Origin: a bacterium
GTDB taxonomy: Bacteria > UBA9089 > JAHJRX01
Direction of reading: 5' to 3'
Assembly: GCA_018830565.1 (NCBI GenBank)
Contig: JAHJRX010000070.1
Span: forward strand, 1 to 49,507
DNA length: 49,507 nt
Part shown: positions 11,013-45,780 of the stretch, one piece after another
How positions within the stretch are numbered: the first letter of the stretch is position 1
How the letters are laid out: each line of letters starts with the position of its first letter
The notes under the pieces: model-generated
The model's input: the letters and a program-made list of their open reading frames with translations, nothing else
Database searches by the model: none
Told to the model about the DNA's origin: nothing
Program-made: the position numbers and the translations under genes

Positions 11013-11022
11013 TGATCTTACT

Positions 11023-11202
11023 CATTTAAAATCCCTGATTTGAACTCTTCTTCTTGAAAAGGAGAAGTATATATAAAAACATCTCTAATAAAGTTTCTTC
11101 TTTAATATTTTTCATTTAAGACCCTGATTTGAACTCTTCTTCTTGAAAAGGAGAAGTATACAAAGAAAGCATCTCTAATAAAGTTTCTTCTTTAATATTT
11201 TT
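11023..11202. repeat. Tandem duplication of the cdaA gene tail (89-90 bp period)
   Basis: The segment from 11113 that holds the cdaA stop and last codons is repeated at 11023-11112. Both copies contain GAACTCTTCTTCTTGAAAAG and CATCTCTAATAAAGTTTCTT. The orphan copy has drifted: it has one extra base near the stop and several substitutions (for example TATATAAAAAC against TACAAAGAAAGC). The stop codon is lost from the original frame in the orphan. Confidence 0.9.
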
Positions 11203-11898
11203 CATTAATTTACCCCCCATCGTTAAAGAGATATAGCCTGTTTCTTCAGAAACAATAATAATTAAAGCATCACTCTCTTCGCTTAATCCTATAGCGGCTC
11301 GATGTCTAGTCCCTAAAGTACTAGGTAGATCTGGATTCTGACTTAAGGGAAGTAAGCAACAAGCCGAAGCAATCTGTCCCCCTCTGATAATAATAGCTCC
11401 ATCATGAAGGGCAGTTCCTGGATGAAAGATAGTCAAGATAAGCTCTACCGAAACTCGACTATCTAATCTTACGCCAGATTCAATATAATTTTTTAAACCC
11501 ATATTTTTCTCAAAGACAATTAAAGCTCCTATTTTCTCCTTAGCTAAAATTGTAACTGCTCTTACTACTTCTTGAATAAACTCTTCTTCACTCTTAAAGA
11601 AGCTTTTTATCCACAATTTCCTTTGTCCCATCTGGGCCAAAGCTTTCCTAACCTCTGGTTGAAAAATAATTACAAAACTTACTAAGCTTATGGTCCAAAA
11701 ATTTCTCATGATCCAGTAAATAGTATTAATATGGTATTGAGAAGAAATATAAAACAAGACAATTAGGACTAAGAATCCTTTCAAGGTTTGCATGGCCCTT
11801 GTTCCTTTAACTAAAACAAATAGCCGATAAACCACAAAGCTAACTATAGAAATATCAACAATATCTATAATACTAATAGAACTTATTAGTTTATACAT
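11116..11898 (-). CDS. cdaA: Diadenylate cyclase CdaA
   Basis: CdaA joins two ATP into the second messenger c-di-AMP at the inner membrane. The 260-residue protein has three N-terminal hydrophobic segments (about residues 10-30, 38-53 and 62-80). The DAC domain carries the catalytic DGA (166-168, in LHDGAIII) and RHR (198-200, in LGTRHRAAIG). It starts 2 bp after folP and is followed by a CdaR-like gene and glmM, the classical CdaA neighbourhood linking c-di-AMP to cell-wall precursor supply. Its 3' tail is duplicated in the downstream spacer. Confidence 0.97.
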   Translation of the reverse strand: MYKLISSISIIDIVDISIVSFVVYRLFVLVKGTRAMQTLKGFLVLIVLFYISSQYHINTIYWIMRNFWTISLVSFVIIFQPEVRKALAQMGQRKLWIKSFFKSEEEFIQEVVRAVTILAKEKIGALIVFEKNMGLKNYIESGVRLDSRVSVELILTIFHPGTALHDGAIIIRGGQIASACCLLPLSQNPDLPSTLGTRHRAAIGLSEESDALIIIVSEETGYISLTMGGKLMKNIKEETLLEMLSLYTSPFQEEEFKSGS

Positions 11899-15135: not shown

Positions 15136-15550
15136 AAGTTATTCTCCTATCTATTCTCTTATACTCTCTTATACCAAGCTTTTATACCAAATTACAATTA
15201 AAGGGTCATTGCGAGCAAATCAAATCAATCACCTTCTCCGTTGAAATTACTTCGTTGCTTCGCTCCTTGCCATGACAAATAAGTTTATTTTTGAAGGCAA
15301 CTTAGGATTAAATCATTGCCTTGATCTTTTTACATGTTTATTCGGCTATGACATAAATTAAATATTATTCTTTGAAGGCAACTTAGGATTAAATTATTGC
15401 CTTGATCTTTTTACATGTTTATTCGGCTATGACATAAATTAAATATTATTCTTTGAAGGCAACTTAGGATTAAATCATTGCCTTGATCTTTTTACATGTT
15501 TATTCGGCTATGACATAAATTAAATATTATTCTTTGAAGGCAACTTAGGA
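15136..15550. other. Gene-free interval with two kinds of repeat
   Basis: This 415-bp spacer between the nucleotidyltransferase and phosphohexomutase genes holds a degenerate GTCATTGCGAG-type palindrome (15205-15276) and three orphan 81-bp tail units (15291-15533). No open reading frame in it looks genuine and I see no clear promoter or intrinsic terminator. Confidence 0.8.
15205..15276. repeat. Degenerate GTCATTGCGAG-type palindromic repeat
   Basis: The element begins GTCATTGCGAGC and ends GCTCCTTGCCATGAC, which are imperfect inverted copies. The right half ACTTCGTTGCTTCGCTCCTT matches the common interspersed palindrome that ends in CGCTTCGCTCCTCGCAATGAC in many unrelated bacterial genomes. 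This copy is decayed. It could form a long hairpin in RNA, but no T-run follows. Confidence 0.75.
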
Positions 15551-15571
15551 TTAAATCATGGCCTTGATCTT
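15291..15571. repeat. 81-bp tandem repeat of the nucleotidyltransferase gene tail (three units plus the gene end)
   Basis: Units start at 15291, 15372, 15453 and 15534, an exact 81-bp period. The fourth, partial unit is the real gene end with the stop at 15551-15553. The three orphan units each contain the codons for KIKAMI and the stop, and are nearly identical (for example AAATTATTGCC against AAATCATTGCC). Each unit has AAGGCAA and TTGCCTT as inverted arms around the stop codon, so the array could form a row of hairpins. Confidence 0.95.
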
Positions 15572-19007: not shown

Positions 19008-19171
19008 TATCTTTTAACCATAAAAAAAACAAGTTTAATTGCCTCAATCATGCTTTTAGGGTTAGCGATGCCTTTACCAACAAGATCATATTTTATTAAC
19101 CATAAAGGAAGCAAGTTTAATTGCCTCAATCATGCTTTTAGGGTTAGCGATGCCTTTACCAACAATATCAA
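19008..19171. repeat. Tandem duplication of the pdxA gene tail (82-bp period)
   Basis: AACCATAAA begins at 19016 and again at 19098, and the next roughly 60 bases are nearly identical, including TTTAATTGCCTCAATCATGC and GGGTTAGCGATGCCTTTACC. The right copy is the coding end of pdxA (stop at 19086-19088 inside the junction). The left copy is an orphan between pdxA and rsmA. Differences cluster near the stop. Confidence 0.92.
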
Positions 19172-20061: not shown

Positions 20062-20946
20062 TTAAAGAATTACCTCTATAGCAGCTTTTTCTCTAAGTTT
20101 TTCCATGTAATCTCTAAGTTCTTTTTGATATTCTTCATTATAAAATTCTCTCTCTATCTGAAGTTTAATCTCTTCTAATTCTTTAGGGGCTATCTCTTTC
20201 TTCTCTATATTCTTAATCAGGTGAAATCCAAATTTAGTTTCCACCACTCCACTAATCTCTCCTTCCTTTAGAGAAAAAGCCACCTCTTCAAATTCTTTTA
20301 CCATTTGACCTTGAATAAAAAAGCCTAAATCTCCTCCTTCCTTTCCACTAGGACACAGAGAATACTCTTGGGCTAATCTTTCAAATTCTCCTCCTTTTTT
20401 AATCTTATCTAAAATTTCCAAAGCTAATCCTTTTTCTTTAACTAAGATGTGTTTTGCTTTAATCTTAAACTTATAATTTACCAACTCAGCTAAAACTTTA
20501 TTATTATCTACCTTTGCTTTTGACCTTACTTCTTCATCTAATATCTTTATCTTTAAAAGTTGATCTTTGTATCTTTCGTAAAGTTGAAATTCTGTTAAGT
20601 TTTCATTGGCTAAGGCTTGCTGAAAAGCACTTTGATCTTTAAAGTTAGCTTTAAGCTCATTAATCATCTGATTTATCTCAGCATCCTCTACCAAGATCTT
20701 CTGCCTTTTTGCTTCCTGTAAGATCAGTTTTTCATTAATCATCTCATTTAAGAGATCTCTCTTAATTTGATCAGAGACAACTACGTTATTTGTCTTGGTA
20801 TAATTATTAATAACTTCTTCTAATTCTAAAAGAGTAATTACTTCATTGTTTACTCTGGCCACTACTCTTTCTATTACCTCGGCTTTAACTGGATAAGAAG
20901 TTATTAAGATTATTAAAGCCAAATAAATCTTTCCATAGACATTCAT
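20062..20946 (-). CDS. Periplasmic parvulin-type peptidyl-prolyl isomerase, SurA-like
   Basis: This is an exported chaperone and prolyl isomerase, probably helping outer-membrane proteins reach BamA. Residues 1-22 form a signal peptide ending at VKA. A SurA-type N-terminal helical domain follows, beginning RVVARVNNEVITLLELEE. One rotamase domain occupies about residues 168-260, with KAKHILVKEK, GGDLGFF and KFGFHLIK. At 294 residues with one rotamase domain it is shorter than E. coli SurA, which has two. The order bamA, surA-like, pdxA, rsmA supports the SurA role rather than a generic PpiD/PrsA role. Confidence 0.9.
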   Translation of the reverse strand: MNVYGKIYLALIILITSYPVKAEVIERVVARVNNEVITLLELEEVINNYTKTNNVVVSDQIKRDLLNEMINEKLILQEAKRQKILVEDAEINQMINELKANFKDQSAFQQALANENLTEFQLYERYKDQLLKIKILDEEVRSKAKVDNNKVLAELVNYKFKIKAKHILVKEKGLALEILDKIKKGGEFERLAQEYSLCPSGKEGGDLGFFIQGQMVKEFEEVAFSLKEGEISGVVETKFGFHLIKNIEKKEIAPKELEEIKLQIEREFYNEEYQKELRDYMEKLREKAAIEVIL

Positions 20947-20995: not shown

Positions 20996-23266
20996 TTAAA
21001 AAGGAGTACCAATACTAAAATAAAATTCTGGTTCCTTTTTTTCTTTATCATTCATCGGATAGCCATAATCTAATCTTATTGGCCCCATAGGCGTGTCAAT
21101 TCTAAAAGAAAAACCTCTTCCCAACTTTAAATTGTTTAAATTAAAGTTTCCATACTTATCCCAAATATTTCCCATGTCTAAAAAAAGAGCAAAATAAAGT
21201 GGTTCGACGATAGGAAATCTATACTCAAAATTAGCATAAAAGACAGAACTTCCTCCATGTTCTTTCTTATTTTCATCTATTAAGGAGATATCATTTTCTT
21301 TATACCCTCTAATGGTCTCAGCACCTCCTAAATAAAATCTAAAATCATCCCTAACCTTGTCATCTCCGGTAATGCTCTTTATTACACCAAATCGAGTCCG
21401 CATGGCTAATACAAATTTCCAGAAAGCTGGAAGATATAATCTTCCTTCAATAACAGACTTATAATAATCAACATCTCCACCCAAAGAAGCCCCAGCCATT
21501 TCATTTAAATAAGAAATTCTATATCCTTTGGTAGTATGATAGATCTTATCACGAGTATCTCGAATAAGATCCACAGAAATACTACTGGTCGCTTCTTCTT
21601 TTCCCTCTTTTTCTATAATATCAAGAGGAGCTAAATTTTTATTCACCTCTTTAAAGAGGACTTTCTCATACTTATAGTCTAAATATATCTTGTTAAAACT
21701 TTTCCATTCTCTGCCCACGCTAATACTTTCACCCTTTTGTAGGGTAGTATACTCATTTATCTTTTGTTCCGTCTTAAAGAGATTAAACCCCAAAGAAGTA
21801 GGGGTATCTTTAAACCAAGGATTGACAAAGCCAACCCTATAGTCCATTCTCTTCTTGCCAAATTCTGATTTAACATTAAGTTTCCAAGCATTTCCAAATA
21901 AATTAGTCTGAGCTACTTCTAAACTTCCTCCTAATCCATATTGACTACTCCAGGTAGTCCCTAAGCTGATGGTTCCTGTTTTTCTTTCTTTTACTTTTAT
22001 ATTTAAGATCTTTTTATTTTTTTGGTCACCAGGTATTACTTCCATATTCACTTGTTCAAAAAAACCTAATTGATATAGTTTCTTCTGCGTTAAGTTTATT
22101 TTTTGGCCATCAAATATCTCGCCAGGCTTTAATAAGACTTCTCTTAAGATTACTTTATCCTTAGTAATCTCATTCCCAGAAACAGAGACCTTTTCTAGGA
22201 AACATTTTTCTCCTTCTCTGATTTCTATCTCAAAGCTTATCTTTTTTTGTTCTTTATCAATAAAGGGCTTAGGAATAATTTGCACCGAGATATATCCTTT
22301 CTGAGAGTACATCTCCATGATTTTACCTTGATCACCTCTAAAGTCTTTTAAGCTATACTTTTTACCTTGGCCAGTCTTTACTTCTTTTAAAAATTCCTTT
22401 TCCGTAAAAAGAGTGCTACCCACAAACTTTAGGCCATCGATTAGATAAATATCACCTTCATTAATATGAATATTGACTACTAATCCTTTCTTTTTATCAT
22501 CAAAATAAACCTTATCTAATTCCACTTGGCATAAAAAATAACCTTTGTTATTATAAAAATACAGGATTTGATTTAAGTCTTCTTCTATTTTTTCCTTGGT
22601 AAAATAATCCCTTTTTCCAGTAGAGATAATCCATTTAAGTCGCCAGGAAGAAAAAGACTCATTGCCAACAAAGTTAATCTCTTTAATCTTAACCTTTTTC
22701 CCTTCTTCTATCTTTAAGTCAATATCAACTAACTGCGAATCTACTTCCTTATTTTTTAAGTCAATATTAACTAATTGTGAATCTACTTCTTTACTTTGAG
22801 AGCTTATCTTTACATAGTAAAATCCTTCACTTCGATAAAGATTCTCTAATCTTCCTATTAATTCCTTAAGTTTATTTTCATCATATAAATCACCTTCTAT
22901 TAAAGTAAAATTCTCTTTTAACTTCTCCTGGGTAATCTCTTTATTGCCTAAAAATTTAATCTCTTTGATGGTAGGTTTTTCCACTACTATAAAGTTAATC
23001 TTTATTCCTTCTTTTTCTTCAAGAAGATCAACTTTAACTTCATCAAAGATGTTTAAGTTAAAGATCTCTTTTATGTCTTTAGTCAATAATTTTTTAGAAA
23101 GGGGGTCTCCTACTGTAGTCTTTACTACAGCTAAGATGGCTTCTTGGCTCAAGATCTTATTTCCCTTAACACCTATCTCGGTAACTTTTAACTCTTCAGC
23201 TTTTAAAAGAGCAGCTAAGCTTAAAAGTAACATTATCAAGATAGTTAAAATAGACTTCTTCATCAT
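20996..23266 (-). CDS. bamA: Outer membrane protein assembly factor BamA
   Basis: BamA is the Omp85 core that folds and inserts outer-membrane beta-barrel proteins. The 756-residue protein has an N-terminal signal peptide (about residues 1-23) and five POTRA domains to about residue 420. A C-terminal Omp85 barrel follows, with the conserved TRDKIYHTTKGYR and LGGAETIRGYKENDI, where IRGY is the VRGF-type lid motif. It ends in Phe (SIGTPF), the beta-signal. POTRA2 contains a 14-residue tandem duplication (about residues 157-184). It lies between the TamB-like gene and the SurA-like gene. Confidence 0.97.
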   Translation of the reverse strand: MMKKSILTILIMLLLSLAALLKAEELKVTEIGVKGNKILSQEAILAVVKTTVGDPLSKKLLTKDIKEIFNLNIFDEVKVDLLEEKEGIKINFIVVEKPTIKEIKFLGNKEITQEKLKENFTLIEGDLYDENKLKELIGRLENLYRSEGFYYVKISSQSKEVDSQLVNIDLKNKEVDSQLVDIDLKIEEGKKVKIKEINFVGNESFSSWRLKWIISTGKRDYFTKEKIEEDLNQILYFYNNKGYFLCQVELDKVYFDDKKKGLVVNIHINEGDIYLIDGLKFVGSTLFTEKEFLKEVKTGQGKKYSLKDFRGDQGKIMEMYSQKGYISVQIIPKPFIDKEQKKISFEIEIREGEKCFLEKVSVSGNEITKDKVILREVLLKPGEIFDGQKINLTQKKLYQLGFFEQVNMEVIPGDQKNKKILNIKVKERKTGTISLGTTWSSQYGLGGSLEVAQTNLFGNAWKLNVKSEFGKKRMDYRVGFVNPWFKDTPTSLGFNLFKTEQKINEYTTLQKGESISVGREWKSFNKIYLDYKYEKVLFKEVNKNLAPLDIIEKEGKEEATSSISVDLIRDTRDKIYHTTKGYRISYLNEMAGASLGGDVDYYKSVIEGRLYLPAFWKFVLAMRTRFGVIKSITGDDKVRDDFRFYLGGAETIRGYKENDISLIDENKKEHGGSSVFYANFEYRFPIVEPLYFALFLDMGNIWDKYGNFNLNNLKLGRGFSFRIDTPMGPIRLDYGYPMNDKEKKEPEFYFSIGTPF
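22713..22796. repeat. 42-bp in-frame tandem duplication in the bamA POTRA2 region
   Basis: TTTAAGTCAATATCAACTAA and TTTAAGTCAATATTAACTAA start exactly 42 bp apart. The protein reads KEVDSQLVNIDLKN then KEVDSQLVDIDLKI. Most differences are synonymous. Confidence 0.92.
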
Positions 23267-23300: not shown

Positions 23301-26300
23301 TTAAAAGCTAATCTCTTTTTTTATACTTATTTCGTGTTCTTCCTTTTCTCCATTTGATTTAGGTAAATATTCATATTTTATACTCTCTTCTGGCCTTAGA
23401 TGATATTCTAACCCAAATTCTTGAAGAAATTTACTCTCTTCTTTTTTCCTGCCCATCGCTCCCCGATAATTAAGATAGAGGTCATCGGTAATATACTTAC
23501 CAAGGTTAAACATGGTCTCAGGAGACTTATCGGCTGACTTTTTAAGATCTTTTTCCTCTTCTTTTAATAAATATCTCTCCACATAAGGCAAACTAATATC
23601 TACATCTACTTTCAATAACTTAGATAAATTACTCTCTAATGGTTTAATAAGGCTATCATTCAGCCCTATTCCTGTTAACCTAATTAGTCCTAAAAAGAGC
23701 AGAGCATCAATCTTCTCTTTTCCTACCTTTTTGTAATCTCTACCTAATCGCAACATTCCCACTATTTCATCTTTTGTCTTAGGAGGATAAATTCCAGGGG
23801 CACAAAGAAGAGGTTCACTCTCAAAAAGCTTTCCTTGATAACTTAATAAGATTAAGATATCGTCGATCTTGGTTTGAGCTTCTCCTGAAAGATAAGGACT
23901 GTTTTCGCCTTCTCTAAACTCTAATTCTGCCTTATTAATAGAAAACCGCGTCCCTAAGTATTCAATGTAACCACTTGAAGATTTAAGATCTCCTGTTACT
24001 TCAAACCTTCCTGGAAAACCTAAAAATCTTATCCAGGAGCTATCTATAACTTTACATTTTACATAGTTATTATAATATCTTACGTTATTTTTTGCAAGCA
24101 ATTTAAGGTCAAACTTAACCTGATTAAAGAAATATTCTTTCTTTCTACTTAGTTTTTTACGATAAGTAAAATTTGTATCTAAGAACTCTACTATGCCCTT
24201 ACAAACAAGCGTCTCGTAATCTCCTTCTAAATGTAGATTAGCCAAAAGCTTGGCCTCTATCTCTAAAGGAATAGAAAGCTCTAAGGGCTTGGTAGTAGTT
24301 AAACAAAGATTAATCTTTTTCTCTGGGATAACTATCTCTCCATAAGAATTAACGATACCCTTGTTTAAAGAAAAACTTAAATCTCTAATCTTTAGATAAT
24401 AGTCATCTAAATCTACTTTTGCCTCTACCTTAGTTAATTTCTCAAAGTATTTTAGTGAAGTCGTTACCTCTCCTTGGGTTAAAACTAATCTTCCCAAAAG
24501 ACGATAATTATTAAATAAGCCTTCTATTGTTATCTTAGCTTCTAATTTTCCACTGACTGAATTAATATTTTTTAGATACTCAGGTACCATTTTTAATAAA
24601 GGTTCAAATGCTTCTAAATCAATGTTCAATCTTTCTTCTTTAGGAAAAACTACTCCTTGGGCTCTTAAGAATAATTGATTACCTTTAACATAGTCTAACT
24701 TATTAATAGTGATCCTATCTGGAAAAGAAAAGATCATCTCACCTAAAATGCTTCTTTCTTCTTGGTAAGGTGAAAGATAAAGAGTATCATCTTGGTATAA
24801 AAATTGGCTATAAATTTCTTTTACTTTTACTCTCTTGTTAAAGACCAGATTAGTGGCTTTAACTAAACCTTCGTACTTATCATCTCCTTGATCGGGCTTA
24901 CTCTTAGTGAAAAGTTCTACTTTTCCAGCTAAAGATAAACCTAAAAACTTAAAGTTAGTTAAATTAACTTTTATCTGAAATCTACCTTCTGGATATAAGG
25001 AAATAACACTCTCATTAAGATTTAAAAATCCAGATTTTTGATCTAAAAAAAGTTGCTCTATCTTAATCTCTCTATTGAAATAACAAAACTTAACTTCAGC
25101 TTCTTTGGCTTTAACCTTCAAAAATGCTAATTCATTGACCTTTAAACAAGCTATTAATTTAGGATTAATTAATTTCTCTTTGATAAGTATCTGGCCACTT
25201 ACGGTTCCTTCTACATTCTTTAAAGGAGTAAAAATATCCAAGATGTCTTTAGCTACCTCTTGGTTAAAAAATAAAGAAGCATCTACTTCTAAATCTTTCT
25301 TAAAATCGATAGTTCCTTCTAAAAAAATACTTTTTGAAGAACTTGAAGATTTAAACCTTAGCATTTTATCTTCAGCCAAGGTAACCTCTCCTTCAAAATC
25401 TCTCGGTATCCTCTTATTAATCTTCAATGAATTAGTTTGAAAATTAAGACTTACTTCAGGCTGTCTGATCTTACCCTTAATATAACCGCTAAGATTTAAA
25501 CTTCCACTATTCCTGGCTAAGATATAAGAAGGAAGGGTAGAGATAGGGAGTTCTTTTATTTGAAAATAAAGATCTAGGTCTTGTTTTTGACTCTTTATTT
25601 TTCCAATTAAACTTAAGTGGCCCACCTTGTTTAAATTTGAAACAAATTTAGTAATCTCTATCTGGCCATATTTGTCTTTTTCTATCTCGGCAACTATGTT
25701 TTGAAAACCCAACCTACCTTCTTTAAGTCCAAGGTCAGCATCTCCTGAGATGATCATCAGACTATCTCTTTGGTTGATATGTAAAGTAGAAGTTAAATGT
25801 CCGTAATAAGTAGAAACTAAATTAGTCTTAAGAATTAACTGAGCTTCTGTTGCTTTAAAATCTTTTAATTTAATCTTACCAGTTAAATCAATCTTTTCTC
25901 TTTCTTCTGTTAATCTGCTTATCTGTAAGCTTTGATTAAAATAAGAAAAGTCTAAGTTAAAATCTCCAAGTTTATCTTTATTTACCGAGGTATTTTTAAG
26001 CTTTAGGTTTTTGGCAGTGATTAAAAGAGGCTCTTTCGGCTTTTTACAAAGTTTCATTTCGCCAAAAAGAAAAGCCTGGAGAGGTTGATATCTTTTTAAT
26101 TCTTTAAAAGAATTGGTGATTAAAGAAAAGTCTAAATTATTTAAACTTATTTGAGAATTTAAAAAATTCTCATCTTGATTAAATTGAATCTTATTCTTTA
26201 TCAACAACCCAATCCTACTGGAGGTGGGAATGGTTTCTAAAGTACTTCCTTGATAATAAAGACAATAATTAAAATCTCCTAAGTCATTATTGTTACAAAC

Positions 26301-28286
26301 TAATCTCTTTACTTTAAGCTCTCCCAAAAAAATATCTTCTTTCTCCCTTTGACTGTAAAGAGTTATCTCAGAGTTTATCAGCTGATTAAGAATATTAAAA
26401 TTATTTAAAGAAAGATCTCCGTCTATCTTAAAAAGGTCTCCTTTTTCATTTTTCTTAAGAGCACTCTTTAATCTTAGATAACCCTCTTCTTGCTGAATAA
26501 GTAGTTCTCCCGATAACTCTTTTCCTTTGCCATTTAAGGCTATATTTACATAATTAAAAAGATCTTTGTTCTTACTTTTATTCGCTACCTTAAGAAGACT
26601 TCGGTAATTAATCTCTTTTGGGTTTCCAGAAAGAGCCACGTTTCCAGTGAGATCTGAAGAAGTAAAGAGATCTAAATGAGGTATCTCGAAAATTTCTAAT
26701 AAATTTAGGAGAGGCATCTTTTCGAATTGAAGATTTGCTTTAAAGTTAAGTTCTTTTTGTAAATTTATCTCCCCCTCCCCAGTAAAAGAAACATCTTTTC
26801 CCCAGGATAAATCAAAGAGGTTAACTTTATTCCCTTGATACTTAAATTTAGCCATAAGAGAAGGAAGAGCTCTACTTTTCTCTTTCTTGGCTATTAATTT
26901 TTTACAAACCACCTCTCCTTGCCGAAAATCTTCCTTTTTATCATAATTGGCTATTAAATTTTTACAAACCACTTCTCCTTGCCAGAAATCTTCCTTTTTA
27001 TCATAATTGGCTATTAATTTTTTACAAACCACCTCTCCTTGCCGAAAATCTTCCTTTTTATCATAATTGGCTATTAATTTTTTACAAACCACCTCTCCTT
27101 GCCGAAAATCTTCCTTTTTATCATAATTGGCTATTAAATTTTTACAAACCACTTCTCCTTGCCAGAAATCTTCCTTTTTATCATAAGTAGTTTCTATATT
27201 TAAATCTCCCTCTAGATCGCTTATTTTTCTAAAGAAAAAAGAGTTCTCTTTTAAATTTATCCACTTATTTAAATTCATCTTAGGAGAAACTAAACTTACC
27301 TTAATAAAAGCAAGACTGCTTTCTATAAAACCATAAAAAGAAATATTTTGATATAAAGCCTTTTTTAAGTTAAGAGATATTTGAGCAGGAAAAAATTGGT
27401 GATTTCCTTGATCTAAGTCCTTTTTAAAATTACCTTCTAAGGAGATATCTTTAATAAGATTTTTTAAAAGATAAAATTTTACCTTGCCTTTCTCTAATCT
27501 CCATCTTCCTTGATAAGTTAACTGGTACCTTTTTTTCTTAATTTCATTTAAAGAACCTATAATTTCACCTTTAACCTGCCCCTCTTTTATTTCTTCTACA
27601 TATCTTTTTAATAAATATCTAAATTTTTCAAGTTCTAGATCTTCAAAAGATAATTTAAAATTTGCTAAAAGAGGAGAATATTTATCAATAGTTCCAAAAA
27701 GATGAAAGGTTCCTTTTTTTCTCTCTTTTAAGATACCCTTTATGGAAAAAGGAGAAGGAAATATCTTAGGATTAATCAAAAAATTAACTTGTTTAAAAAA
27801 AAGATTTAAATCACAGGAAAAATCTACGAGGTGAATAACTCCATCTTTTATCTCTATTTTAGGACATTCCACCAAATTAGCTCTTTTCAATTTAAATAAT
27901 TTTTCCCAGTTCCATTTATTGTTTTTACCTTTTATTAGAGAAAGAGAAGGAGAATATAATTTTATCTTAGAAACTAATAAATTCTTGTTCTTTTTTATCA
28001 AAAAATCCCAGAGGCTATACTTTAAGACAACCTTTTTTATTTTAATAAGATCATTGGAACCATTATTAATGATTATTTTGTTCAAGATCATGGTATTATT
28101 AAAAAAGATATCTATCTTTCCTACTTCTACCTTAGAACTTAATTTATCTTCCACCTTCTTAATAAAAGCCTCTTTAACTACAAGCTCTATTTTTTCTTTT
28201 TGGGTAATAAATCCTAAATAACTAAGAATGACAAGTAAAGTAGCTATACTCAAGATTAAGGGCCAAGCAATCCTTTTCTTCTTCAT
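23301..28286 (-). CDS. TamB-like AsmA-family envelope protein
   Basis: The 1661-residue protein has a single N-terminal membrane helix (residues 7-27) and a very long beta-rich periplasmic body. The C-terminal TamB domain (DUF490) contains SGYIEYLGTRFSINKAELEF and GEAQTKIDDILILLSYQGKL. AsmA/TamB proteins form grooved bridges across the periplasm; roles in lipid transport and outer-membrane protein assembly are known for relatives. It sits just upstream of bamA, the usual place. Residues about 368-467 are five 20-residue tandem repeats. Translation starts at ATG with AGGA about 12 nt upstream, and the dispersed repeat just upstream supplies a probable promoter. Confidence 0.92.
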   Translation of the reverse strand: MKKKRIAWPLILSIATLLVILSYLGFITQKEKIELVVKEAFIKKVEDKLSSKVEVGKIDIFFNNTMILNKIIINNGSNDLIKIKKVVLKYSLWDFLIKKNKNLLVSKIKLYSPSLSLIKGKNNKWNWEKLFKLKRANLVECPKIEIKDGVIHLVDFSCDLNLFFKQVNFLINPKIFPSPFSIKGILKERKKGTFHLFGTIDKYSPLLANFKLSFEDLELEKFRYLLKRYVEEIKEGQVKGEIIGSLNEIKKKRYQLTYQGRWRLEKGKVKFYLLKNLIKDISLEGNFKKDLDQGNHQFFPAQISLNLKKALYQNISFYGFIESSLAFIKVSLVSPKMNLNKWINLKENSFFFRKISDLEGDLNIETTYDKKEDFWQGEVVCKNLIANYDKKEDFRQGEVVCKKLIANYDKKEDFRQGEVVCKKLIANYDKKEDFWQGEVVCKNLIANYDKKEDFRQGEVVCKKLIAKKEKSRALPSLMAKFKYQGNKVNLFDLSWGKDVSFTGEGEINLQKELNFKANLQFEKMPLLNLLEIFEIPHLDLFTSSDLTGNVALSGNPKEINYRSLLKVANKSKNKDLFNYVNIALNGKGKELSGELLIQQEEGYLRLKSALKKNEKGDLFKIDGDLSLNNFNILNQLINSEITLYSQREKEDIFLGELKVKRLVCNNNDLGDFNYCLYYQGSTLETIPTSSRIGLLIKNKIQFNQDENFLNSQISLNNLDFSLITNSFKELKRYQPLQAFLFGEMKLCKKPKEPLLITAKNLKLKNTSVNKDKLGDFNLDFSYFNQSLQISRLTEEREKIDLTGKIKLKDFKATEAQLILKTNLVSTYYGHLTSTLHINQRDSLMIISGDADLGLKEGRLGFQNIVAEIEKDKYGQIEITKFVSNLNKVGHLSLIGKIKSQKQDLDLYFQIKELPISTLPSYILARNSGSLNLSGYIKGKIRQPEVSLNFQTNSLKINKRIPRDFEGEVTLAEDKMLRFKSSSSSKSIFLEGTIDFKKDLEVDASLFFNQEVAKDILDIFTPLKNVEGTVSGQILIKEKLINPKLIACLKVNELAFLKVKAKEAEVKFCYFNREIKIEQLFLDQKSGFLNLNESVISLYPEGRFQIKVNLTNFKFLGLSLAGKVELFTKSKPDQGDDKYEGLVKATNLVFNKRVKVKEIYSQFLYQDDTLYLSPYQEERSILGEMIFSFPDRITINKLDYVKGNQLFLRAQGVVFPKEERLNIDLEAFEPLLKMVPEYLKNINSVSGKLEAKITIEGLFNNYRLLGRLVLTQGEVTTSLKYFEKLTKVEAKVDLDDYYLKIRDLSFSLNKGIVNSYGEIVIPEKKINLCLTTTKPLELSIPLEIEAKLLANLHLEGDYETLVCKGIVEFLDTNFTYRKKLSRKKEYFFNQVKFDLKLLAKNNVRYYNNYVKCKVIDSSWIRFLGFPGRFEVTGDLKSSSGYIEYLGTRFSINKAELEFREGENSPYLSGEAQTKIDDILILLSYQGKLFESEPLLCAPGIYPPKTKDEIVGMLRLGRDYKKVGKEKIDALLFLGLIRLTGIGLNDSLIKPLESNLSKLLKVDVDISLPYVERYLLKEEEKDLKKSADKSPETMFNLGKYITDDLYLNYRGAMGRKKEESKFLQEFGLEYHLRPEESIKYEYLPKSNGEKEEHEISIKKEISF
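26888..27185. repeat. Five 60-bp tandem repeats inside the tamB-like gene
   Basis: The 60-bp unit encodes YDKKEDF(W/R)QGEVVCK(N/K)LIAN and is repeated five times with exact period. Two unit types alternate in gene order as W, R, R, W, R. Units of the same type are identical in the stretches compared, for example 27001-27060 and 27061-27120. The length is a multiple of three, so copy-number change keeps the frame. Confidence 0.97.
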
Positions 28287-29001: not shown

Positions 29002-29065
29002 GTTTGCTCCCTTAGGTCTTAATTCGTATATTCTCTATCTTATTTTATTAATCTTTTCTGAAGGA

Positions 29066-29155
29066 GTTACCAAAAAGAGTAACTTGTTATTTTAATACCC
29101 TTAGAAAGGGGTTACCAAAAAGAGTAACTTGTTATTTTAATACCCTTAGAAAGGA
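29066..29155. repeat. 45-bp direct tandem repeat, two copies
   Basis: GTTACCAAAAAGAGTAACTT starts at 29066 and again at 29111, and the whole 45-bp unit is repeated. Each unit begins with a small hairpin, GTTAC and GTAAC around CAAAAAGA. It lies upstream of the PGPGW gene. Confidence 0.92.
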
Positions 29156-29293: not shown

Positions 29294-31816
29294 TTAATTA
29301 ATAATAGCTATTTTACCTTTAAAAACCACCCTCCCTTTATCAAAAACAAGGTAGAGATATACTCCGCTTCCTACTACTTGACTGTATTTATTGGTAATAT
29401 CCCAAGAGGGGGTATCTTCTTTATCTTCAATAGTTTTAATTAATTCTCCAGCGATATTGTAAATTTCAATCTTAGTAAAATTTACTATCCGGCCAAAGGT
29501 AATTTTATGTTCCGCAGTCTTGGTCAAATTCAAAGGATTGGGATAAAGAGAAATGCTCTTTATAGAGATATTATCTGAAACTTCTTCTATGATCCCGTAA
29601 ATTCCAAGTTTGTTAATTTGTGTCTTAATCTTTCTTGCTAATTTATCTATAGTTTGAGAGTAAGATAACTTTTCCCATCTTTGTTCTTCTTTATTTAAGT
29701 AATAAATCTTTAAGTTATCTTCATTGGTTTTTAGTTGGCCTATTACTTCTTCATCATAAGGAAGAGTAATATAAGTAACTCCCTCAGTTTGATTAACTTG
29801 AATCTTACTACTCAGAGTTAAAAGATTCCCATGCATTCCTACCGCTTTAAATTCATGGATACTTTTCTCCAAAATTTCAGAAAGGTGTAAATTTGAATTA
29901 AGAGTTAACTTATAATTGGCTACCTTGATAGAATGATCTTCAGGGTTATTGACCACGAAGACATAGGCATCTTCTTCTAAAGCATTGGCATTAATTTCAA
30001 TGGTTGCTCCACTGGTGCTTTTTGTCATTCCTCCTATCTTAGCCTGGGTGTAAATAATTATTCTTCCTTGACTACAATCATAAAAAGGCATATTTATCCC
30101 ATCGTCAATCTTCCCCCAGATGTAACAGTATCTCTGCCAGGGATACCAACTAGGAATAAGGGATAAATCTAGTAAATAAGCATCCTTTTCTAAGTTATCT
30201 TGATCTTGATCATCTTCTTTTATTCCAGAAATAATTTTTCCCCAGGTAATATCTTTTAAACTTGCTAAATTATTGAACCAGTCTCTATCTTTATCCCAAT
30301 AAAGGGTAATAGTGGCATTATCGTCCATATCTAAATCTTCCCAAGTAATGAGATAGTCATAGCCAGCTTTGGTCTCTCCTAAAGGAGGTTTTATCATCTC
30401 TATACATGGAGGAAGATTGTTATTAAGAATAAAGATATCATAAGATTCATCTTCTCCTTTTAAAGGTGGTAATCCGTTATCTCTAGCAATAACTTTTATC
30501 TTAGCTTTATCACTACTATAACCAGAAGTATCCCAGAGATATGTTGTTTCTTGTAAATTAGAAGCCACGGTAATAGGGTAAGAAACTCCTCCGTCCAGAG
30601 ACAGTAAGATATTAAAATGATGGAGGTCGGAGAGATTTTCATCAGTAACTTTCCAGTTAATGGTAAAATTACCTTTAATTGTCTCTTTACCATTAGGACT
30701 AATTACAGTCACCAGAGGAGCTTTGTTTAATGGAGCTCCTACTATCTTTCTTATTCTATTATTAGCTTGATCTGAAAAGTAAAAATTTCCTTGACTATCC
30801 ATCGTTAAACTATAAGGATAATTTAACGATGCTTCTAAAGCAGGGTTATTTTCTCCAGAAAAACCAGCTTTCCCATTTCCAGCAAAAGTAGTAATTATCC
30901 CATCTTGATTAATTTTTCTAAGGCGATGATTAAAAGAGTCACAGATGTATAAATTGCCTATGGTATCCATAAAGATTTCAGTAGGTTTCCTTAAAGAAGT
31001 AGAGATGGCCAGGAGATTATCTCCAGAGTAACCTTCTTGATTATTTCCAGCAATAGTAGTAATAATTCCTTTAGTATCAACCTTTCTAATTCTGCTATTG
31101 CAAGTATGGGTAATATAAATATCCCCAAAACTATTAACTAATACTCCATGAGGATAACGAAGCTTAGAAGATAAAGCATCTTTATTATCTCCATCGTAGC
31201 CTTCTTCTCCGTTACCTGCTACGGTGACAATAATTCCATCTTGGTTAACCTTTCTAAGACGATGATTAAAAGAATCACAGATGTATAAATTATCTTCTTT
31301 GTCTATAAAAATACCATAAGGAAGATATAGAGAAGCCTTTGTGGCTAAGTCTCCATCTCCAGAAAAACCAACTATCCCATTTCCAGCAATGGTTGTAATG
31401 ATTCCATTTTTATCAATCTTTCTGATCCTATGGTTCTTAGAATCTGAAAAATAGATGTTTTCTTTTTGATCTAAACAAATACTTACCGGTTCACTTAGAG
31501 AAGCCTTTGTGGCTAAGTCTCCATCTCCAGAAAAACCAACTATCCCATTTCCAGCAATGGTTGTAATGATTCCATTTTTATCAATCTTTCTGATCCTATG
31601 GTTTAAAGTATCAGCTAAATATAAATTATCTTCTTTATCTATGGTAATACCCGAAGGGCTCCTCAAAGAAGCAGAAATGGCTGGTCCTCCATCACCATAA
31701 AAATTAGACATCCCATCCCCGGCAATAGTATAAATATCTCCAACTTCAGCCTGAGAAAGAAAAGGAAAAAGTATTGAGCAAATTAATAAAGGTAATAATA
31801 ATCTTTTTATGCTCAT
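29294..31816 (-). CDS. Secreted NHL-repeat protein with FlgD-like C-terminal domain
   Basis: The 840-residue protein has a signal peptide (residues 1-23, ending SQAE). About six NHL beta-propeller repeats of some 56 residues follow, with the pattern TIAGNG..GFSGD and ....NHRIRKI. Then come Ig-like segments (for example VTVISPNGKETIKGNFTINW) and a C-terminal FlgD Ig-like domain with LYPNPLNL, IEIYNIAGELIKTI and GSGVYLYLV. It is probably secreted and surface-associated, with a binding propeller; the ligand is unknown. Two neighbouring NHL units share about 100 identical bases. The ATG at 31816 has AGGCAG a few bases upstream, and a hairpin with eight T sits right before that. Confidence 0.88.
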   Translation of the reverse strand: MSIKRLLLPLLICSILFPFLSQAEVGDIYTIAGDGMSNFYGDGGPAISASLRSPSGITIDKEDNLYLADTLNHRIRKIDKNGIITTIAGNGIVGFSGDGDLATKASLSEPVSICLDQKENIYFSDSKNHRIRKIDKNGIITTIAGNGIVGFSGDGDLATKASLYLPYGIFIDKEDNLYICDSFNHRLRKVNQDGIIVTVAGNGEEGYDGDNKDALSSKLRYPHGVLVNSFGDIYITHTCNSRIRKVDTKGIITTIAGNNQEGYSGDNLLAISTSLRKPTEIFMDTIGNLYICDSFNHRLRKINQDGIITTFAGNGKAGFSGENNPALEASLNYPYSLTMDSQGNFYFSDQANNRIRKIVGAPLNKAPLVTVISPNGKETIKGNFTINWKVTDENLSDLHHFNILLSLDGGVSYPITVASNLQETTYLWDTSGYSSDKAKIKVIARDNGLPPLKGEDESYDIFILNNNLPPCIEMIKPPLGETKAGYDYLITWEDLDMDDNATITLYWDKDRDWFNNLASLKDITWGKIISGIKEDDQDQDNLEKDAYLLDLSLIPSWYPWQRYCYIWGKIDDGINMPFYDCSQGRIIIYTQAKIGGMTKSTSGATIEINANALEEDAYVFVVNNPEDHSIKVANYKLTLNSNLHLSEILEKSIHEFKAVGMHGNLLTLSSKIQVNQTEGVTYITLPYDEEVIGQLKTNEDNLKIYYLNKEEQRWEKLSYSQTIDKLARKIKTQINKLGIYGIIEEVSDNISIKSISLYPNPLNLTKTAEHKITFGRIVNFTKIEIYNIAGELIKTIEDKEDTPSWDITNKYSQVVGSGVYLYLVFDKGRVVFKGKIAIIN
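31333..31603. repeat. Recently homogenised NHL repeat pair (168-bp period)
   Basis: The stretches starting AAGCCTTTGTGGCTAAGTCT at 31333 and 31501 are identical for about 100 bases, far more than the other NHL units. 168 bp is exactly one 56-residue NHL repeat, so this is a recent duplication or gene conversion. Confidence 0.9.
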
Positions 31817-45575: not shown

Positions 45576-45598
45576 AATTAATCTTCCTTTTCTTAATC

Positions 45599-45780
45599 TT
45601 CTAAAACTACCGTAACTACCATAACATGATCAATTATTTTAAGAAGACCTTCTTCCCACTTTAACTTCCTTTTTTTAATCTTCTAAAACTACCGTAACTA
45701 CCATAACATGATCAATTATTTTAAGAAGACCTTCTTCCCACTTTAACTTCCTTTTTTTAATCTTCTAAAACTACCGTAAT
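45599..45780. repeat. 82-bp tandem repeat of the rplV gene tail (two orphan units plus gene end)
   Basis: TTCTAAAACTACCGTAA starts at 45599, 45681 and 45763, an exact 82-bp period. The third occurrence is the true end of rplV (stop at 45757-45759). The two orphans carry the codons for TVVLED and a stop and are essentially identical to each other. Each unit includes a small palindrome AAGAAGACCTTCTT. The array fills the rplV-rpsC spacer. Confidence 0.95.

Follow-up and report, generated by a model that had tools for sequence, protein, structure and literature searches.

The question raised by this locus is whether a run of near-identical repeats in a large envelope protein is a dedicated means of changing that protein's length or a product of the ordinary mutational habits of its genome. 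The repeats lie in a bacterial gene for a TamB-like protein, within a stretch of 49,507 bases that was analysed as a whole and is called the window throughout (Table 1). The initial annotation described five near-identical 20-residue units at positions 26888-27185, and both TRF and a unit-by-unit comparison confirm them, with the proposed coordinates falling within 1 base of the TRF array at either end. We consider it quite probable that this array is a recent, lineage-specific and tolerated in-frame minisatellite, supplied by an ordinary background of duplication, and that it is not a dedicated switch.

Table 1. Coordinates of the repeat array, its units, its host gene and neighbouring features in the window.
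Feature	Positions	Strand	Remarks
PpiC/SurA-type peptidyl-prolyl isomerase	20062..20946	-	next downstream after the BamA-like gene
BamA-like Omp85 protein, POTRA matches	20996..23266	-	directly downstream of the tamB-like gene
42 bp x 2 (14 aa) in-frame tandem duplication in bamA	22713..22797	-	
TamB-like protein, 1661 aa; Pfam TamB at residues 1381-1639	23301..28286	-	
Five-unit 60-bp (20-aa) array	26887..27186	-	TRF bounds; residues 368-467, codon phase 26886-27185
Unit 1, type W	27126..27185	-	codon phase
Unit 2, type R	27066..27125	-	codon phase
Unit 3, type R, identical to unit 2	27006..27065	-	codon phase
Unit 4, type W, identical to unit 1	26946..27005	-	codon phase
Unit 5, type R; last base alone differs from units 2 and 3	26886..26945	-	array edge

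The host gene encodes the TamB (DUF490) C-terminal domain (PF04357, 83.4 bits with a cut-off of 22.4). Its score against the NCBIfam TamB equivalog model NF047952 is 27.8 bits, far under the cut-off of 825, and for this reason we call the product TamB-like and not a TamB equivalog. A hydrophobic stretch can be recognized by eye near the N-terminus of the translation, and the protein probably bridges the two cell membranes. An Omp85 partner is at hand, in that the adjacent gene matches both Omp85 and POTRA. Among 15 other genomes that have both genes, tamB and bamA adjoin by coordinates in two (G001 and G004) and are found on separate contigs in 13, all 13 of which are drafts. Beyond the PpiC/SurA-type isomerase, the gene order in the window continues with pdxA and ksgA.

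The array is situated in the N-terminal third of the tamB-like gene. TRF assigns it a period of 60, 5.0 copies, 95% matches, 0 indels and a score of 544, and its units run head to tail and in frame within the long ORF. Each unit is translated as YDKKEDF(W/R)QGEVVCK(N/K)LIAN, with the two types following one another as W, R, R, W, R along the gene. There are 0 differences between the two W units and 0 or 1 among the R units, the odd base being the end of the last unit, which lies 1 base beyond the TRF array. Units of different type are distinguished by 4 of 60 bases (5 if the comparison involves the last R unit, in codon phase), and these W/R differences comprise two silent and two protein-changing substitutions (W to R and N to K).

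Chance is a poor explanation for this arrangement, since no array of such a class appeared in first-order Markov resamples. One resample was made for each of five sequence sets, and all of them gave 0 arrays under the criteria that we used for counting (TRF period of at least 30, score of at least 80 and match of at least 85%). A search of the genome's contigs with the array returned a single match, the array itself, with no second copy. The candidate origin as a mobile repeat resident elsewhere in the genome is consequently not supported, as the array matches one place only. DNA hairpins as a driver of duplication are likewise unsupported, given that no inverted repeats were found at 26800-27280 and that shuffled versions of the array strand fold better than the strand itself (z 2.11). 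A plus-strand ORF of 110 aa that crosses the array was dropped because the TamB match sits in the minus-strand frame. The window contains no RNA family at gathering score and no tRNA called by ARAGORN.

The figure of five depends on a draft assembly of 86 contigs, because the longest exact repeat within the array is 120 bp and k-mers that are unique across it require k of at least 121. Assemblies from short reads can report too few copies of a tandem repeat (PMC6868369), and the five copies might be a product of assembly, with a true array that is either shorter or longer. We regard this reading as very unlikely. Within one contig, the two unit types follow no periodic order and the array is bounded by unique sequence at either end, which would be unlike a simple collapse, and the lone unit in the nearest relative, described below, is accompanied by no partial second copy of the kind that a collapsed array might leave.

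When the array was compared with relatives, as the initial annotation had proposed, its copy number proved to vary between related genomes, with five units here and one in G001, a member of the same family. The search covered 61 genomes, the window's own among them, and 21 match at E <= 0.001. There is no second genome of the source genus among the 61, and the nearest relative, G001, shares the family and belongs to a different genus. Its tamB gene is split across contigs, and the N-terminal piece spans the array site, which consists of one unit, KKEKDFWQGGINYQDLII. Alignment of the window protein to this piece scores 931 when one W unit is retained, 914-915 with one R unit, 870 with none and 846 with all five. 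A single segment also occupies the array site in seven more TamB rows of a weak multiple alignment (G002, G007, G013, G018, G017, G016 and G005), and the statement carries less force for these distant rows because their overall identity to the window protein is 19-26%. With four units dropped, local alignments to G013, G018, G017 and G016 start at query residue 21 or 26 and continue without a break to the end. The combination of constant copy number and old divergence among units, which the initial annotation had named as the outcome contrary to its proposal, was not found among the relatives compared.

The identity of units within each type, set against 4 differences in 60 bases between types, points to two ages of duplication. 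Because the nearest relative comes from another genus, the age of the array has to be read from this within-type identity, which could also be maintained by gene conversion. We suggest that one ancestral 60-bp segment, which was probably W-like, would have been duplicated once, and that the two resulting copies would then have diverged at four positions. The WR pair may subsequently have been block-duplicated and one R unit recopied (WR to WRWR to WRRWR), without the copies diverging again, and the duplication of a two-unit block that had been put forward earlier does fit the order W, R, R, W, R. The likely route would be unequal recombination or replication slippage between direct repeats. 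That W is the ancestral type is probable, since G001 has Trp at the position of the Arg in R units and, at the site that reads Asn (AAT) in W and Lys (AAA) in R, codes for Asp (GAT). Against this assignment, G001 has TTT at the silent Phe site and there agrees with R and not with W; the fourth W/R site allows no comparison with G001. Alternatively, the one unit of G001 may itself have come about by loss of units.

Small tandem duplications also occur elsewhere in this genome. Under the criteria given above, the window holds 7 arrays in its 49,507 bases, including those in tamB and bamA, and 17 other contigs or contig parts of the same genome hold 8 in 230,198 bases. The corresponding counts are 3 in 149,226 bases for G001 (one of them in the tamB contig, a deliberate inclusion), 5 in 161,042 for G002 and 0 in 106,882 for G004. 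Outside the window, therefore, the source genome is not far above G002, and the duplication background is not special to it, as both G002 and G001 hold similar arrays. Among this genome's own arrays, those in tamB and bamA were the ones compared with relatives. The BamA protein of G001 shows a 14-residue gap opposite the 42-bp duplication, although a weak array of period 21 bp (score 62) lies near this position in the G001 gene.

All five arrays that lie wholly inside an ORF of at least 90 aa have a period divisible by three, as do 5 of the remaining 11. This comparison takes in 16 arrays, namely 15 from the counts and, added by hand, an array in an NHL-repeat gene (168 bp, 81% match), and the ORFs are not all verified genes. 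In the small number of cases sampled, small tandem duplications inside the ORFs of this genome thus preserve the reading frame. The array in tamB could accordingly be seen as one of the genome's ordinary small tandem duplications, filtered by selection against frameshift, and its extra units would have been tolerated because the frame was kept. An origin in small tandem duplication, with an array that is real, recent and fairly ordinary, is the most likely reading.

Five further duplications of 45-90 bp are present in the window, at 11022-11206, 15285-15571, 19014-19170, 29061-29155 and 45578-45779. They occupy intergenic stretches or borders, and three of them include the 3' end of an ORF. 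The NHL-repeat gene carries, at 31342-31703, 2.2 copies of its 168-bp unit with 81% matches by TRF, and its propeller may also have grown fairly recently. On another contig of the same genome (C50; L043, positions 290-499), an 83-bp array of 2.5 copies lies between genes for tRNA-Arg and tRNA-Lys. Its unit resembles pieces of tRNA genes, and ARAGORN calls no tRNA there.

We also compared arrays among the TamB and BamA genes of the relatives, with TRF scores of at least 80 and periods of at least 12. Including the window's own, 6 of 20 TamB ORFs or fragments from 19 genomes contain an array; the TamB genes of 5 of the 18 other genomes (G007, G016, G009, G011 and G001; 19 ORFs or fragments) have arrays of their own with different units. 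In the BamA control, an array is present in 1 of 16 ORFs, own included, and that one is the window's, whereas three further BamA ORFs carry weaker arrays with scores of 55-62. This contrast between TamB and BamA is suggestive only, a hint and not a statistical test, because 13 of the 19 TamB ORFs from relatives are open at a locus end. The array in tamB of G007 (L005, ORF nucleotides 1095-1291) has a period of 42 and IRNPQSA-type repeats, and hence another unit at another place. Short in-frame arrays occur in G016 (L009, 15 bp), G009 (L010, 18 bp), G011 (L013, 18 bp) and G001 (L023, 33 bp); all four are located before about the middle of the gene, with positions estimated for L010 and L013, whose ORFs are cut.

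A rival reading, for which these differing tandem inserts in other TamB genes speak, is that copy number varies between cells and thereby adjusts the reach or capacity of TamB, much as the tolA repeat of Escherichia coli does for stress tolerance. The identical 60-bp units and the 120-bp exact repeat would suit recombination, and in E. coli stress tolerance differs among tolA variants that carry from 2 to 39 repeats (PMC3477136). Nevertheless, we think functional tuning of this kind rather unlikely, as the arrays of the relatives differ in both unit and place and there is no sign of selection for the window's array. Moreover, similar duplications are present in bamA and at five other sites in the window, intergenic or at gene borders, and they speak for mutation more than for gene-specific selection.

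What the added residues might do depends on how they fold. The groove of TamB is described as built from beta strands that are hydrophobic on one face and hydrophilic on the other (PMC5719984) and as lipid-filled in simulations (PMC12800296). The 80 added residues would sit in the part expected to form this groove, either adding segments to it or bulging from it. A single-sequence AlphaFold2 model of residues 30-620 has a mean pLDDT of 32.6 and a pTM of 0.18. The beta moment at 170 degrees is 0.16-0.27 in the W units, the R units and the G001 segment, as compared with 0.88-1.07 in three aligned segments from distant relatives. A groove strand is thus not assured for the unit, since its own family has no clear beta alternation. 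A profile of the relatives gives a weak match to the solved E. coli TamB chain 9xdc_B (profile positions 472-967, E 3.2e-4), and this match begins past the array, so that the search yielded no solved structure covering the array itself. One could picture each unit as a strand plus a turn, with four units, an even number, having been added so that the direction of the chain was kept; the longer TamB would then alter reach or lipid flow, and tamB of this phylum would repeatedly grow in this manner. We hold this picture to be improbable. If the units do fold into the groove, however, the natural pair of one unit and five could be used to ask whether the length of the lipid conduit matters. Under the preferred reading of a tolerated minisatellite, the array mainly shows that 80 new residues can be accommodated in a large envelope protein from a little-known lineage.

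The repeats also attracted attention because each includes a Cys, which had been thought unusual for an exported protein. One Cys does occur at a fixed position in all five units, but the claim that it is unusual did not hold up. The TamB-like protein contains 11 Cys beyond the array in 1561 residues, and the N-terminal 501 residues of the G001 protein contain 8. No match to DsbA, VKOR or DsbB was found in the source genome (99.29% complete), in searches whose controls gave matches in 8, 3 and 6, respectively, of 14 genomes. In view of these other Cys residues and the absence of matches to the three proteins, Cys in an exported protein is not odd here. A ladder of repeated Cys that binds metal or forms disulphides would account for a Cys at the same place in each of five units; so would duplication, which provides a Cys with every unit at no cost. 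As G001 has Tyr at this position, the protein has Cys scattered elsewhere and the genome gave no match to DsbA, VKOR or DsbB, such a ladder seems extremely improbable, and the five Cys of the array are better explained by the copying of one Cys.

The preferred reading, a tolerated minisatellite, can be set beside three known systems. Among envelope proteins in which a repeat varies and its phenotype has been measured, the nearest precedent that we found is TolA of E. coli; contractions of the tolA repeat reach 6.9e-5 (PMC3477136). Both are in-frame repeats in an envelope protein with a copy number that varies among lineages. However, the protein and the unit are different, and for tolA variation within a clone and a phenotype have been measured, whereas the array described here is known from sequence alone. 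TamB of E. coli shares with the window's protein the Pfam C-terminal TamB domain and the weak profile match to 9xdc_B after the array. The window's gene differs in that it adjoins a gene for a BamA-like Omp85 protein and encodes a product far under the NCBIfam equivalog cut-off. The available parts of two accounts of E. coli TamB (PMC5719984 and PMC12800296) describe no array of identical units. Among the matches listed, no publication on tandem repeats in TamB was found.

A more general likeness is to the minisatellites and VNTRs of bacterial genes. These form a class of repeats in bacterial genes whose units are tens of bases long. The array in tamB resembles them in having a unit of tens of bases, a head-to-tail arrangement and an intragenic period divisible by three, and the features of an intragenic minisatellite, namely near-identical in-frame units placed head to tail and a copy number that differs between genomes, are all found here.
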